From a virus: a DNA stretch of 39,815 nucleotides. Under the pieces are notes generated by a model that searched no databases, was not told the DNA's origin, and was given only the letters and a program-made list of their open reading frames with translations. The translations under genes were made by a program, and so were the position numbers. The stretch is taken from the IMG/VR virus record IMGVR_UViG_3300044998_000321, positions 1-39,815 of that record. One strand, written 5' to 3'. Positions 14,746 to 37,100 of this stretch are shown piece by piece; within the stretch, counting starts at the first letter, position 1, and every line of letters starts with the position of its first letter.

Positions 14746-16638
14746 TCACCATGTCCTGGTAAACCTGCGCTGCTGCGCCCTCGCATCCGCTGAGGTCGCC
14801 ACAGGCTTCGCCACCGCCTTCACCAGATCGGAAGCGCCGGCCTTTTCCGACTCCCTCCGCGCCATGAAGGCCGCCGGGTCGATCTTCGAGAGGCGAAACC
14901 CCGCCAGCGCGTACTTCCAGCAGTCAAAGGCCTCGTTCCTCACCCGGGTCTGCTGCCATTCCCGCACCAGCTTCCCTTTCACCGTCTTTTCCACCAGCCG
15001 GTTGCTGGTGAGCTGGGCGAAGAACTCGTCATCGAAGGCCGCCTCGCCCTGGGGGAAGTGCAGATAGCCAGGGCGCCCCTGGCCGGGTGGGGGCGGCTCC
15101 AGCTTCAGCCGCTGGGTGAGCAGGGCCTTGGCCGCCTCGTCCGACACCAGGAAGGGCGAAAAGCCCTTCTTGCGCTTCTTGCGCAGGCGGCGACGGCGGG
15201 CCTCATCGTCTTCCACCAGGGTCATGCCGCGCCCCTCCACGCCCTTGCACACGTACAGCCAGGGCCGGCGGCGGGCGAACTCATAGACCTGATCGGCGTT
15301 GTAGCCAGAGTCGATACCGCCGCAGTCCGGCGCGATGTCTTCGATCTGCTCCGCCAGCTCGTCCCAGGGGTCTCGTCCCGCCGTGTCGCCCGCCACGATC
15401 ACATGATCGATGGCCCAACATTCCTCCCCCTGGCCGAACTCCACCACCAGCATTTCGATGCGGTCCTTCTGCACGTCGATCCCCACCGAGCGCACGCGGC
15501 GCGGCATGTCCGCCGGGTAGGGCTCCAGCCGGGCCAGGATGGAGAGCGGGTCCACCGCCTCGCCGCGTTCCTCCCACGGCTCCCCCAGGTTGGTATTGAT
15601 GAAGGCCCGCAGGGTGGCGGTGTTCTCCTGGGCCGCCAGCCACCCGGCCACCAGATCCCGCCAACTCGGCCCCAGGCCGATGGGCGCATACAGCGCGCTG
15701 ATGTGATAGCCGCGCCGGGCCCGCTCCGGGTAGCGGGCAATCCAGCGGCCCTGGGCCAGCATGCGCGGCTTGTCGTGCTCCTGGATTTCCCCGCCGCAGC
15801 CTCGACAGACATAGCGCACGCTGACGATCTCGTCCTGGCCGCCCTCCTGGCCTTGCACCACAGACCACTTCAAGCCATGGTCTGTGTTGGGCCCGCCCCA
15901 TTCCAGGGGCTGGAACTCGCCACAGTGAGGGCAGGGCACGTGATACCGCCGCTGATCGCTCCGCTCCCACTGCCGGTGGATCAGACCGCCTTTCAGTGTC
16001 GGCGTGCTGATGTAGCAGCGCAGCGCCCGGGGAAAGGCCTTCGTGCGCCCCTCGGCCAGGGTAATGATGTCCCCTTCCTCGCCGATCTCCTCCGGGAAGC
16101 GGTCCAGGTCGTCCAGGATGATGGTCTTGACCGACTTCTGCGCGTAGCTGTTGGCCGAATTGCCCCCGGCCAGGAACAGCACCCCGCCGGGGAAGTCGAT
16201 CAGGTCCTGCCGGTTGGCCGCATCCCGGCTACGGATGCCGCCCAGCAGGTCGCGGATGATGGGCGTCTCCTGGAGCAGCGGGTTGAGCTTCTGCACCTTC
16301 CAGGAATCCCGCGATTCGATGGTGGGCATCATCACCATCACCGGCGCCGGGGCGTGCTCCATGATGTAGCCCAGGGCGTTCACCACCGCCTCGGTAACGC
16401 CCACCTGGGAGGACTTCATCACCACCAGGTCCCGCACCCGCGAATGCATGGAGAAGCAATCCATGATCTCCCGCAGGATGGGATTCCTCGCCGTGCGCCA
16501 ACGCCCCCGCTCGCTGGACTGCTTGCCCGACAGGATGCGGTGATCGTCCGCCCACTGGGATACCGACAACGCCCGGCGCGGAGCAACCGCGTGACGCAGG
16601 ACGGAAAAACAGTGCTTGAGATGTTCCGGCGCGCCCAT
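14746..16638 (-). CDS. A: Terminase large subunit, lambda GpA family
   Basis: A 630-aa packaging motor and nuclease. The N-terminal ATPase has a deviant Walker A (MKSSQVGVTE, residues 74-83) and Walker B (IILDDLD, about 173-179). A zinc-binding insert (CPHCGEF to CRGCGGE, about 233-285) and a C-terminal RNase H-like nuclease (SVGIDVQKDRIEML; GIDSGYNADQV) follow. The GpA family makes staggered cos cuts in lambda. The ATG lies 11 bases after a GGAGG embedded in the 3-prime arm of a terminator-like hairpin (16644-16678), so expression may be structure-controlled. Confidence 0.95.
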   Translation of the reverse strand: MGAPEHLKHCFSVLRHAVAPRRALSVSQWADDHRILSGKQSSERGRWRTARNPILREIMDCFSMHSRVRDLVVMKSSQVGVTEAVVNALGYIMEHAPAPVMVMMPTIESRDSWKVQKLNPLLQETPIIRDLLGGIRSRDAANRQDLIDFPGGVLFLAGGNSANSYAQKSVKTIILDDLDRFPEEIGEEGDIITLAEGRTKAFPRALRCYISTPTLKGGLIHRQWERSDQRRYHVPCPHCGEFQPLEWGGPNTDHGLKWSVVQGQEGGQDEIVSVRYVCRGCGGEIQEHDKPRMLAQGRWIARYPERARRGYHISALYAPIGLGPSWRDLVAGWLAAQENTATLRAFINTNLGEPWEERGEAVDPLSILARLEPYPADMPRRVRSVGIDVQKDRIEMLVVEFGQGEECWAIDHVIVAGDTAGRDPWDELAEQIEDIAPDCGGIDSGYNADQVYEFARRRPWLYVCKGVEGRGMTLVEDDEARRRRLRKKRKKGFSPFLVSDEAAKALLTQRLKLEPPPPGQGRPGYLHFPQGEAAFDDEFFAQLTSNRLVEKTVKGKLVREWQQTRVRNEAFDCWKYALAGFRLSKIDPAAFMARRESEKAGASDLVKAVAKPVATSADARAQQRRFTRTW

Positions 16639-24966: not shown

Positions 24967-25061
24967 GCCAGATCTTCGCATTCTTCCTCGGCCTCTTCAT
25001 CGGCGTGGCCGTGGTTGCCATGCTCTGCGCCGCCCGGTGCAACTGGGAGGAAGACGAATGA
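24963..25061 (+). CDS. Single-pass membrane microprotein (32 aa)
   Basis: MSQIFAFFLGLFIGVAVVAM forms one transmembrane helix, followed by a Cys pair and an acidic tail (CNWEEDE). CAAGGAG precedes it, and ATGA overlaps join it to both neighbours. Short membrane proteins of this type occur in many early phage operons; function unknown. Confidence 0.6.
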   Translation: MSQIFAFFLGLFIGVAVVAMLCAARCNWEEDE

Positions 25062-25576
25062 GCAGCAGCCGCTGGACACAAGAAGAGATACGCATAGCCG
25101 TCCGCATGGACGCGGCGGGCTGCACCATCAGGCAGATTGCAGACGTACTTGGGCGCACGCCCCATGCCGTCGGCTACAAGCTCTGCATGCTGGAGAAAGC
25201 CGGGAAGATTGCACGCCAGCAATCCGGTAAGCCATGGACGGCCACAGAAATCGAGACCGCCAAGCGCATGGACGCCGAAGGCAAGGCCATGCAGGAGATC
25301 GCCGCCGCCCTGGGCCGCACACCGGCCTCGGTGAAGGACAAGCTCATCCGCCTATCCAGGCAAGGCGGCATGCCCAAGCGCCCCCCCCTGGACCGCGCCC
25401 GGCGCGCCCAGATTTCCAAGGCCTCGCACGAGGCGAAGAAACGCACCCGCCGCCCGTGCCTCTGCTGCGGGCAGCCCTTCATGTCGGAAGGGCCGCACAA
25501 CCGGCTGTGTAGCAACTGCCGCAGCAAAAGCCAGGAGGTGTCGTATGCGCTGCCCAGTTGTGGGAGCGCGTTTTGA
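25058..25576 (+). CDS. Tandem GcrA/SANT-like HTH protein with zinc ribbon
   Basis: A 172-aa protein. Two homologous DNA-binding repeats, residues about 5-45 (WTQEEIRIAVRMDAAGCTIR) and 60-100 (WTATEIETAKRMDAEGKAMQ), are followed by a basic linker and a C-terminal zinc finger (CLCCGQPF to CSNC). The repeats resemble GcrA/homeodomain-like HTHs; a role as early transcription regulator or antiterminator is inferred. ATG 25058 overlaps the preceding stop. The GGCNN repeat region begins 15 bases after its stop. Confidence 0.72.
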   Translation: MSSSRWTQEEIRIAVRMDAAGCTIRQIADVLGRTPHAVGYKLCMLEKAGKIARQQSGKPWTATEIETAKRMDAEGKAMQEIAAALGRTPASVKDKLIRLSRQGGMPKRPPLDRARRAQISKASHEAKKRTRRPCLCCGQPFMSEGPHNRLCSNCRSKSQEVSYALPSCGSAF

Positions 25577-25663
25577 GTAGAGGTTTTCCCGGGCGCGGCA
25601 CGGCGTGGCGGGGCTAGGCCGGGCAAGGCCGGGCGAGGCGGGGCAAGGCATGGCGCGGCAAGG

Positions 25664-25720
25664 GCTGCAACGCAGCGTCAGCCGCATTGGCAACAGTGCG
25701 GCTGGCGATGCGAGAGCATC
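25664..25720 (+). ncRNA. 57-bp three-hairpin core, copy A
   Basis: Hairpin 1: GCTGC-AAC-GCAGC. Hairpin 2: CAGCCGCA / TGCGGCTG (8 bp) with the loop TTGGCAACAG. Hairpin 3: GATGC-GAGA-GCATC, a GNRA tetraloop. An RNA-level function is inferred from stem geometry and from how copies differ; expression is unproven. Confidence 0.55.
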
Positions 25721-25788
25721 ACGCGCGGCGGGTACTGGCGAGGCAAGGCGAGGCCGGGCCTGGCCGGGCGTGGCGCGGCAAGGCAAGG

Positions 25789-25845
25789 GCTGCAACGCAG
25801 CGTCAGCCGACTTGGCAACAGGCCGGCTGGCGATGCGAGAGCATC
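25789..25845 (+). ncRNA. 57-bp three-hairpin core, copy B
   Basis: Same length and hairpins as copy A. Hairpin 2 differs at four bases only, all in the stem: the loop-closing A-T pair becomes C-G while the next pair becomes A-C. The loop TTGGCAACAG is unchanged. Hairpin 3 is identical to A. Confidence 0.55.
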
Positions 25846-25955
25846 AGCTCGGACCGGCAGGGCATGTCAGGGCCTGGCGGGGCACGGCAGGGCGTGGCTC
25901 GGCGCGGCAGGGCAAGGGCGCTTCGGCGCATTCATCAACTGAGGAGTGAATCATC

Positions 25956-26621
25956 ATGGCAAGGACTTACGCAGTAACGATCACAGGCAAAACCCCACTG
26001 ATCATGCACGCGGACAACATCGAATGGGCCGACCAGATGGAGGAATGGAAGAACGATCCGGCCAACCGCAAGATCAGCAAGGCCGGAGACGACCGCTCGC
26101 CTGCATTCCGGTGGCTCGGGTGCCTGTACCACGACGGCGAGCACGTTTGCATTCCACAGGACAACCTCATGCGCAGCTTCATGGAAGGAGGCGCCATGGT
26201 GCCAGTGCCCGGTGGCCGCAGCGGCAAGACCTTCAAGGCCCAGACCCAGAGCGGCATGAACGTGGGCGAACCGGCCTGGAAACTCGCCGTCAACGGCAAG
26301 GAGATCGAGATTGCGCCGCTGTTTTCGCTCATGAACGAGCCGGACTTCGGCAAGCACAAGGAAGCCGCCAAGGCCCAAGGATTCTCCCTGCACATCAAGC
26401 GCGCCAAGATTGGCGCGAGCAAACACGTCCGCGTCCGCCCCATCTTCCACAACTGGACGGCCAGCGGAACCATCGTCGTGTGGGATGAGCAGATCACCAC
26501 GCAGGTGCTCACCGACATCCTCACCTACGCCGGCAAATACAAGGGCATCGGCGACTGGCGGCCAGGGGCGAAGACGCCCGGCAGTTTCGGGATGTTCGAG
26601 GCGAGCATCAAGGAGATTTGA
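25956..26621 (+). CDS. Unrecognised early protein between structured repeat blocks
   Basis: A 221-aa protein (MARTYAVTITGKTPLIMHAD). The start ITGKTPLIMH and the C-terminal GIGDWRPGAKTPGSFGMFEA resemble a family of phage proteins often found in replication/recombination regions, as I remember it; the Gly-rich C-terminal loop and N-terminal strand recall a RAMP-like fold, but this is weak inference. GAGGAG precedes the ATG, just after a UUCG hairpin. It is bracketed on both sides by GGCNN arrays and cores, the only gene so placed. Confidence 0.7.
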   Translation: MARTYAVTITGKTPLIMHADNIEWADQMEEWKNDPANRKISKAGDDRSPAFRWLGCLYHDGEHVCIPQDNLMRSFMEGGAMVPVPGGRSGKTFKAQTQSGMNVGEPAWKLAVNGKEIEIAPLFSLMNEPDFGKHKEAAKAQGFSLHIKRAKIGASKHVRVRPIFHNWTASGTIVVWDEQITTQVLTDILTYAGKYKGIGDWRPGAKTPGSFGMFEASIKEI

Positions 26622-26633
26622 GGTTTGACACGA

Positions 26634-26823
26634 GGCCTGGAAAGGCGCGGCCCGGCATGGCATGGCGAGGCCGGGCGAGGCCTGGCCGGGCAAGGCGCGG
26701 CGAGGCAAGGGCTGCAACGCAGCGTCAGCCGACTTGGCAACAGGCCGGCTGGCGATGCGAAAGCATCACGCGCGGCGGGGCATGGCGCGGCACGGCAGGG
26801 CCAGGCGTGGCTCGGCAGGGCAA
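26634..26823 (+). repeat. GGCNN arrays 4-5 with core C
   Basis: Array 4 (26634-26708) has 15 units, one degenerate (GGAAA); core C is 26711-26767; array 5 (26774-26823) has 10 units and ends GGCAAGGGC. Array 5 follows the same order of dinucleotides as array 3 (AC, AG, GT, TC, AG, AA) with single units gained or lost. The block fills the gap between the genes at 25956 and 26834. Confidence 0.92.
26711..26767 (+). ncRNA. 57-bp three-hairpin core, copy C
   Basis: Differs from copy B at one base: the hairpin 3 loop GAGA becomes GAAA, which keeps the GNRA tetraloop. Stems and the TTGGCAACAG loop are identical to B. Confidence 0.55.
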
Positions 26824-26833
26824 GGGCTTCAAG

Positions 26834-27082
26834 GTGCTCACGCCAGCGGAGCGCGTGTCGTTCAGCGTTGCCAAGATCGCCACCGGCACGCGGATGGTGC
26901 GCAAGGCCGGCGTGCGCGCCGCCATGATCCCGCAAGACGAGCTGTCGAAGGAAGACCAGATGAAGGTCGATCACGTCGTGCGCCTGGCCGCGAAGATCGA
27001 CATGGCATACAAGGAATCGAAGCGCTCCATTGCGCCTCCGGCGCCGGTCATGCAATTGGCAGCAGTAAGGGCGTCCTCGTGA
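26834..27082 (+). CDS. Small early protein directly after repeat block
   Basis: An 82-aa protein from GTG 26834 (VLTPAERVSFSVAKIATGTR), helical and Lys/Arg-rich; not recognised. The frame stays open upstream through array 5, core C and array 4 to a TTG at 26618, so the repeat block could add an N-terminal extension or may have replaced the original 5-prime end. GGCAAGGG of array 5 may serve as ribosome site, 7-8 bases before the GTG. The stop overlaps the next gene. Confidence 0.55.
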   Translation: MLTPAERVSFSVAKIATGTRMVRKAGVRAAMIPQDELSKEDQMKVDHVVRLAAKIDMAYKESKRSIAPPAPVMQLAAVRASS

Positions 27083-27222
27083 AAAAACTGAAGGCCCTCA
27101 AGCAAGAACTGCTGGCCGACCCAGAAACCATGGCTGCCTATTACGCAATGGAGGAAAGCATGTGCAACGCAGACATCATCGAACGCCACATTGCCGCGCT
27201 CGAAAGGAGACTTGAACCATGA
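27079..27222 (+). CDS. Small helical early protein (47 aa)
   Basis: GTG start (VKKLKALKQELLADPETMAA) overlapping the preceding stop; all-helical, ending ERHIAALERRLEP. Its stop overlaps the ATG of the interrupted HTH gene. The KALKQELLADPE segment recalls the N-terminus of small HTH antitoxin-like proteins, but no HTH is visible. Confidence 0.55.
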   Translation: MKKLKALKQELLADPETMAAYYAMEESMCNADIIERHIAALERRLEP

Positions 27223-27450: not shown

Positions 27451-27485
27451 AAAACCGTTTTCAATGATTGATGGAGTGCGGCGAC

Positions 27486-28286
27486 ATGCCCCTTTTTGAT
27501 GCGCTTGGTTTCCGATGGGACAGATCGGCAGTACCGACTTCCGTTCCGGCTCACTCGCTTGAGCGGGTCTGTTTCCGCTTCCACAAAATGCTGCCCGAGT
27601 TCGTCTGGGATGCTTCGGTGCTTGAAGGCAATCCCTTCACCTTCCCCGAGGTCAAGACCCTGCTGGATGGTGTGACTATCGGCGGACGGAAGATTTCAGA
27701 TCAAGAGCAAATTCTGAACCTCGCGGAAAGCTCCAAGCGCCTGCTGGCGATGGTCAAGAGCGGTCAGTTTTCCCTCACCAAGACCGTGTTCATCGAACTG
27801 AACGGCATTGTCGCTCGCAAGGAAGCCTTGGAATGGGGATTGTTTCGTGGCGAAGGTCAAGAGACAAACTACACCCCGGATGTTGGCCTCGGCGAGCGTG
27901 GACGCTATACACCGCTGCCGACACTCCCCGGCGCACCGGAACTGAACCGAGTGTTCAGCGAAGGCGTGTCAGCACTGCAAGAGTGCGAACCATTTGAACG
28001 TGCAACGGCTTTCTTTCTGTTCGGCGCGTTGCAGCAATTCTTCTTCGACGGCAACAAGCGCACGTCGCGCTTCATGATGAACGGCGTCCTCATGTCTCAC
28101 GGCATCGACGCCATCAGCGTGCCCGCTGCCAAGGCGCAGGAGTTCAACGAGAAGATGGTGCGCTTCTATCTCTCGAAGGACGCCACGGAGATGATGGATT
28201 TCCTCGCCGGGTGCCACCCGGATGCAGAGGCAATTCTTCCTCCACCAGAAGAGGATCGAGATCACGACAGCGGAATGGAGCCGTAA
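27486..28286 (+). CDS. Fic/DOC-family protein with altered catalytic motif
   Basis: A 266-aa Fic-domain protein. The N-terminal segment contains an SVLEGN motif like the inhibitory (S/T)xxxE(G/N) helix of Fic proteins. The Fic core at about 184-195 reads QFFFDGNKRTSR, where the family has HxFx(D/E)GN(G/K)R: the catalytic His is replaced by Gln and the fifth position is Lys, as in Doc. Active Fic enzymes AMPylate or phosphorylate targets; this one may be inactive or have other chemistry. Start 27486 is chosen for GGAG 9 bases upstream; earlier in-frame TTG/ATG codons exist. Confidence 0.88.
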   Translation: MPLFDALGFRWDRSAVPTSVPAHSLERVCFRFHKMLPEFVWDASVLEGNPFTFPEVKTLLDGVTIGGRKISDQEQILNLAESSKRLLAMVKSGQFSLTKTVFIELNGIVARKEALEWGLFRGEGQETNYTPDVGLGERGRYTPLPTLPGAPELNRVFSEGVSALQECEPFERATAFFLFGALQQFFFDGNKRTSRFMMNGVLMSHGIDAISVPAAKAQEFNEKMVRFYLSKDATEMMDFLAGCHPDAEAILPPPEEDRDHDSGMEP

Positions 28287-35921: not shown

Positions 35922-37100
35922 TTACTCCATGAGATAAATCGCCGGGCACACTCCAAAGACACCCGTTACCGATGTCGGAGCAGGGTCTGGCAGCGTCGAT
36001 CCTGACCCGGTTGCGTATAAATAGCTAACGACCGCAGTGCCGTTCGACGCACGGCCCAACGCCGTCTGTATTGAATTTACCGCCGTCGCACGCACCGTTG
36101 CATCAGACGAGGAGATCAGCGAAGCCCAATACAGCACGCCGGGTTCGAGGGTAAAGGACAGCGTTCCGTCTTTATTGCCGGTCGTCCCGGTGTCCAGGGT
36201 TGCGCCGATCGCGGCGAGCAGACTGCCCGGAGCATCATCATCGTTGACTTGCGTGTTGTTATAGATACCGAGATTGGCCGCTCCAGCAGATGCCGTTGTT
36301 ACGCTGATGCGCAGTCCGGTCAGCGCCACCCGTCGCGGCACGACGAACGGCACGAAATATTGCCGCTCAGCCGTCAGCGCCAGCGTCGTCAACGCAACGC
36401 CGGAGACATCCCCGACGATCTTCGGGTTTGCAGATCGCTTCGGATACGCGAATGTTTGCGAAACCCCGATCACTGATCGGGCCGCGTCCTTATCCGCTGC
36501 CGTGAAAAGCGCCGATCCGGTTGCAGTTGCGCCAAGTGTCGTCCGCGCCGTGGGGGCGTCCGCTGCCGTGAAAAGCTCCGACCCGGTTGCGGTTGCGCCG
36601 AGCGTCGTGCGTGCCGTAGGGGCGTCCGCATCATCCAGCAGCGTCCGCGCAAAGCTCGTAAATGTGGTAAGCGCCGCACTCGTCGCACCATTGAAATAGG
36701 GCAGTCTGTTAAATGCAGGCGTCAGCACCGCAATGGCGTTTGTTGCGGCGGTCTTGTCCTGCTTGGCGTTCAGCGCAGCTTGCATCGCTGTGGAGACGGG
36801 CTTTTCTGCATCGCTGGTGTTATCCACATTGCTCAAGCCCACATCGGATTTGGTCAAAATCACGTCCCCGATACGGCCAGCGACACTTAAAACAGGTGGA
36901 TTTGGCCCCGGTGGCCCTTGCGGACCTGGATCACCCTGAGGGCCTTGGGGGCCTTGCGGACCAGGGGCGCCTTGTGGGCCTTGAGGGCCTTGGGGGCCTG
37001 CCGGCCCCTGAGGACCAGGCGGCCCAGGCGGTCCCTGCATGGCCGCTGTTTCCACAATCACCGATTGCGGCGATTCCACGATAAGGGTGTAGTCGTTCAT
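35922..37100 (-). CDS. Collagen-like tail fibre protein
   Basis: A 392-aa fibre. Residues 23-67 are fifteen consecutive Gly-X-Y triplets (GPP, GPQ, GAP, GDP), a collagen-like trimeric stalk. Residues about 130-200 contain tandem repeats [16 protein letters not shown] that are also seen in the other fibre (39050). The C-terminal 190 residues form a beta-rich domain ([20 protein letters not shown]) probably for receptor binding. ATG overlaps the preceding gene stop. Lambda-like phages often carry a second side fibre. Confidence 0.85.

Follow-up and report, generated by a model that had tools for sequence, protein, structure and literature searches.

The plus-strand segment in which five arrays of GGCNN pentamers surround a single gene is very probably a VIPR locus of a temperate phage, whose arrays would act as guide RNAs blocking the genes of competitors; this reading draws on sequence comparison, structure models and analogy with a published system. 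The locus belongs to an already described kind, partly damaged, and does not represent a new kind of element. A preliminary description of this DNA knew of no named element with this layout, a statement now superseded by the report in 2026 of VIPR (Viral Interference Programmable Repeat; PMC13142463, bioRxiv 2026, version 2); its suggestion of an RNA device was the right branch, as the arrays match the guide RNAs of VIPR.

The window, by which we mean the whole stretch of 39,815 nucleotides analysed here, corresponds to a tailed phage, with genes for terminase, portal, a capsid-protease fusion, tape measure and tail-tip proteins on the minus strand, and with the VIPR locus on the plus strand in what is apparently the early region. 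Just downstream of the locus, a gene at 27468-28286 (+) shows a strong match to phrog_11900 and a weak one to Fic/DOC (Pfam E 1.7e-4, below cut-off). A tRNA-Leu(CAG) called by ARAGORN at 15074-15159 (+) lies inside the opposite-strand gene for the terminase large subunit and is probably a false positive. Near the right end of the window, within ORFs of coding length, positions 36493-36629 and 36916-37019 hold a 66-bp tandem duplication (2.1 copies) and a tract of 9/27/36-bp repeats.

According to the preprint, a VIPR system is composed of a small RAMP protein, Vipr, and of vrRNAs that consist of 9-16 repeats with a constant GGY and a variable NN and that end in a structured 3' tail (PMC13142463). 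The NN pairs of the vrRNA are described there as recognising double-stranded DNA by a pattern that skips one base in each unit, and the activities demonstrated include reporter repression, prophage induction and restriction of lambda. In nature the targets are chiefly rival phages, prophages and satellites. Seven types are distinguished, and in type II (SUSP1, P. fulva) the vap genes encode predicted DNA-binding proteins (PMC13142463). The window matches this description in its protein, the GGY/NN code, the 9-16 units, the structured 3' tail and the phage home; of the minimal two-gene locus it has vipr and a part of vap. The predicted features, all on the plus strand, are as follows.

25592..25661, plus strand: guide array A1 of vrRNA1, 14 GGCNN units; NN order GC AC GT GG TA CG AA CG GA GG AA AT GC AA
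25662..25720, plus strand: three-hairpin 3' tail of vrRNA1, from its fold; relatives have the same type of tail
25727..25786, plus strand: guide array A2 of vrRNA2, 12 units, one degenerate; NN order GG CT GA AA GA CG CT CG GT GC AA AA
25787..25845, plus strand: three-hairpin 3' tail of vrRNA2, from its fold
25851..25915, plus strand: guide array A3 of vrRNA3, 13 units, two degenerate; NN order CC AG AT AG CT GG AC AG GT TC GC AG AA
25916..25929, plus strand: short gene-proximal tail of vrRNA3, a hairpin of the GGGCGC-UUCG-GCGC type before vipr
25956..26621, plus strand: vipr, encoding the 221-aa Vipr protein, a Cas7-like RAMP
26634..26708, plus strand: guide array A4 of vrRNA4, 15 units, one degenerate; NN order CT AA GC CC AT AT GA CG GA CT CG AA GC GA AA
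26709..26767, plus strand: three-hairpin 3' tail of vrRNA4, from its fold
26774..26823, plus strand: guide array A5 of vrRNA5, 10 units, tail lost; NN order GG AT GC AC AG CA GT TC AG AA
26825..27082, plus strand: remnant of vap1, the gene for the Vipr accessory protein; its C-terminal half, covering positions 75-148 of the 151 in the phrog_5926 profile

A unit-by-unit recount bore out the unit counts (14, 12, 13, 15 and 10, a total of 64 with four degenerate), the 5-base register and the coordinates given in the preliminary description. GGC is intact in 60 of the 64 units, the register is strict throughout, and the NN positions use 14 of the 16 dinucleotides. The longest pure in-register run of GGC in the region spans 14 units; no run exceeded 5 among 2000 order-1 shuffles of that region, nor 3 in the rest of the window or on the minus strand. 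No sigma-70-like promoter was found in window positions 25300-27200. The claim that arrays 3 and 5 share their dinucleotide order, from which the units had been thought to behave as a recombining set, lacks statistical support (longest common subsequence 6, p=0.12 under unit shuffling). The GG tracts are regular and spaced by three bases, as two-tetrad RNA G-quadruplexes regulating the early gene would have them; such a role is extremely improbable, since the conserved element is GGC (GGY in relatives) and not GG alone, and since the variable NN pairs, the tails and the Vipr partner would be left unexplained.

By its sequence and its predicted fold, the gene between the arrays encodes a RAMP protein of the Vipr family. 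Its product has one credible match in the PDB, entry 36pp, "SUSP1 Vipr protein" (phmmer E 8e-11), which a profile of 57 relatives matches at E 4.5e-17. It falls into phrog_4652 (E 1e-20), a family of unknown function that also takes in the Vipr proteins of SUSP1 (about 25% identical) and LESphi2 (28%); among named genomes, its nearest relatives come from a Steroidobacteraceae MAG (68%) and from Pseudorhodoferax sp. Leaf274 (63%). None of Pfam, PADLOC and NCBIfam holds a real Vipr model. An AlphaFold model built on the 57-sequence alignment (pLDDT 92.9, pTM 0.87) places Csm3 and type VII Cas7 at the top of both the Foldseek and the VIA-align lists, with Z about 11 over 150-165 residues. The likeness to these Class 1 CRISPR effectors lies in the RAMP fold (Z 10-11), their subunits lining an RNA guide in the known complexes; in contrast to the window, Class 1 effectors use a contiguous guide derived from spacer arrays. 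Neither a CRISPR array with contiguous spacers nor cas genes were seen around the locus, where the repeats are 5-nt GGCNN.

Close parallels among described systems are offered by two phages. With the type II VIPR of Escherichia phage SUSP1 (PMC13142463; PDB 36pp) the window shares a Vipr-family RAMP protein, GGY/NN arrays flanking vipr on both sides, an accessory gene of the Vap1 family (phrog_5926), a structured 3' tail and the fact of being phage-encoded. It differs in that its units are GGC only, those of SUSP1 being mostly GGT, in that its tail consists of three hairpins, whereas the SUSP1 clade is reported with a pseudoknot, and in that its two gene-side arrays have a tail that is either short or gone and its vap1 is truncated. 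With the VIPR-like locus of the Pseudomonas aeruginosa phage LESphi2 it shares the order array-tail-array-tail-array-vipr-vap and tails that start GGGCUGC...GCAGC; unlike the window, LESphi2 has a full-length vap and three arrays found, all upstream of vipr. As the SUSP1 vap1, the LESphi2 vap and the fragment in the window all match phrog_5926, the locus is most likely a type II VIPR, a type assigned here through the Vap1 family, with only half of vap1 left. The HTH gene immediately upstream (25037-25576) was also considered as a vap and dropped, as no fetched relative has it.

Profile scans gathered 77 Vipr relatives, four of them in genomes and the others in IMG/VR contigs, some being near-identical. 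Arrays of GGYNN, counted where at least 7 good units lay near vipr, accompany 73 of these 77, so that the arrangement does recur in related genomes. All 290 arrays share the strand of vipr, the opposite strand having none, and all but one are near vipr. A hairpin begins within 4 bases of the array end in 155 of 230 distinct arrays, compared with 26% in shuffled sequence. The match to the published VIPR, together with the arrays in the relatives and their single strand, leads us to read the arrays of the window as guides and the cores as their tails. The same data bear on the proposal that the arrays are a DNA repeat platform, either a recombination hotspot or a protein-binding array, with no role as guide RNA. 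The arrays are indeed repetitive and GC-rich, their unit number varies between loci, and array 5 is located at a deletion junction; however, the 290:0 strand bias relative to vipr, the hairpin immediately past the array end, the constant partner with a Cas7-like RNA-binding fold and the RNA evidence that the preprint contains for homologous arrays (PMC13142463) make this proposal very unlikely. None of the G-quadruplex, recombination-substrate and DNA-platform readings entertained in the preliminary description is needed.

Some relatives depart from this layout. A divergent group of loci (L072-L079) carries 6-12 short arrays, mostly 7 nt apart (GGAACNN) and without a hairpin tail, which constitutes a different guide layout. 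In Cluster F mycobacteriophages (Cheoctovirus; Mycobacterium phage Philus, L004, 2505-2760, and L006), GGCNN arrays lie directly upstream of an unannotated Vipr-like protein and show a one-base register slip every 10-12 units (GGCAGGC); by analogy, these slipped arrays look like the published "staggered" form of VIPR. Rfam gave no match above the gathering score for the window and nine relatives.

Folding confirmed the three cores with three stems noticed before. Cut to 60 nt, those at 25662, 25787 and 26709 each form three hairpins, at -38.3, -33.0 and -33.0 kcal/mol; the fold z-scores of the corresponding stretches of 64-65 nt are -4.45, -3.67 and -3.45, with a competing long-helix fold for core 2 on this longer stretch. 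The arms of tail hairpins 1 and 3, in the window as in relatives, are complementary to each other, and the best fold differs from three hairpins in 15 of 23 tails, one long rod being usual. In these models the complementarity suggests two alternative folds or a loop contact.

The placement of the tails follows a rule. Among the 18 related loci having three-hairpin tails, to which the count is limited, such a tail is present on 33 of the 38 arrays that have another array next and on 1 of the 22 that do not. Four of the five internal exceptions continue directly into more GGYNN units and so resemble a single array divided by a register slip. In relatives, a short hairpin, typically GGGCGCNNNGCGC, closes the array preceding a gene, and the ribosome site and start codon of vipr or vap come next. 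This gene-proximal pattern is matched exactly by array 3 of the window, with the UUCG hairpin already noted (GGGCGC-UUCG-GCGC) and then vipr; array 5 would be expected to show it ahead of vap. The structured 3' tail of VIPR takes two forms here, with three hairpins on three arrays and a short hairpin on one, array 5 being without any. The vipr-proximal array, which in relatives is also found before vap, could conceivably be the 5' leader of the gene, so that a guide array ending in a short hairpin would double as an autoregulatory leader, Vipr loading or vrRNA processing feeding back on the translation of vipr and vap; we regard this as a rather doubtful possibility.

The two arrays without a long core, which had been set apart as ending without a core, do lack it; on sequence grounds, array 5 is a truncation at the vap1 junction and belongs to no separate class. 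It continues directly into the GKGFKVLTPAERV codons that start the C-terminal half of Vap1, the N-terminal 70-80 aa or so being absent from the window and the remainder fused to the array. In 15 relatives, 69-81 residues precede the matching region of vap1, including the GGxPT-DVxKL and WRK stretches, and this upstream part was not found at the expected place in the window. The array end and tail start (GGCAAGGGC) are identical in nine bases to the junction codons G-K-G, for which a short-homology deletion would be the simplest explanation. One deletion has thus probably removed both the tail of array 5 and the first half of vap1, and an assembly error at this junction may be an alternative origin.

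Of the Vap1-family gene that would complete a minimal vipr plus vap locus, the window keeps only the C-terminal half. With the array 5 tail and half of vap1 gone, vrRNA5 and Vap are probably non-functional and the locus may be decaying in part, while vrRNA1-4 and Vipr look intact. A stronger version of this idea holds that the locus is now defunct, the vap1 deletion and the tail loss being decay and the vrRNAs inactive. The missing half of vap1, the absent tail and the empty target searches described below would agree with it; against it, vipr is full length, keeps the conserved residues and has a confident predicted fold, arrays 1-4 and their tails are intact, and in the published work Vipr and vrRNA restricted phage even without vap, which merely enhances the effect (PMC13142463). 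We consider a wholly defunct locus unlikely, and continue with the reading of a partly damaged VIPR.

Read with the published skip of one base, and with the last, near-constant unit dropped, the five arrays decode to the following patterns.

A1: GCxACxGTxGGxTAxCGxAAxCGxGAxGGxAAxATxGC
A2: GGxCTxGAxAAxGAxCGxCTxCGxGTxGCxAA
A3: CCxAGxATxAGxCTxGGxACxAGxGTxTCxGCxAG
A4: CTxAAxGCxCCxATxATxGAxCGxGAxCTxCGxAAxGCxGA
A5: GGxATxGCxACxAGxCAxGTxTCxAG

No convincing target for any array emerged from the fetched loci, the viral contigs and the sampled genomes, the collections being searched by exact sub-patterns only. In the window and the fetched loci, the 1-nt skip code gave matches no better than unit-shuffled patterns, and in a scan with all arrays the excess for a skip of one came almost entirely from loci fetched because they matched. 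Viral contigs held no match to exact sub-patterns of 22 and 20 bases; those of 16 bases gave 36, 8, 9 and 11 matches, mostly at chance level beyond the searched core. The best candidate for A2 (20/20 bases over ten units, the first two units mismatched) was rejected: it is a single sequence in three contigs, with a reading frame that looks non-coding. Allowing up to 3 mismatches, neither A4 in 300 genomes from the order of Pseudorhodoferax Leaf274 nor A1 in 251 genomes from its family found a target, samples that may be off target for the host of this phage; A1 found none in 41 viral records of relatives either. Given these limits of the searches, the absence of targets is weak evidence.

If the published system is a guide to this one, each array with its tail would be processed to a vrRNA of roughly 100 nt, on whose GGC triplets the Vipr subunits would load; the exposed NN pairs would read double-stranded DNA as NNxNNx..., skipping one base per unit, and the complex would stop a competitor, whether phage, prophage or satellite, from being transcribed. 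This mechanism is carried over from one preprint about other members of the family, the Vipr of SUSP1 being about 25% identical. By that analogy, the phage probably uses VIPR to silence genes of other, competing phages.

The analysis supports the description of VIPR independently, from raw sequence, and adds 77 Vipr relatives, mostly from uncultivated phages, with arrays that track vipr on one strand. The locus also illustrates how a VIPR can be damaged by a deletion between an array and the adjoining gene. Finally, the tail rule shows experimenters what RNAs to look for, and points to the guide nearest the gene as a possible mRNA leader as well.
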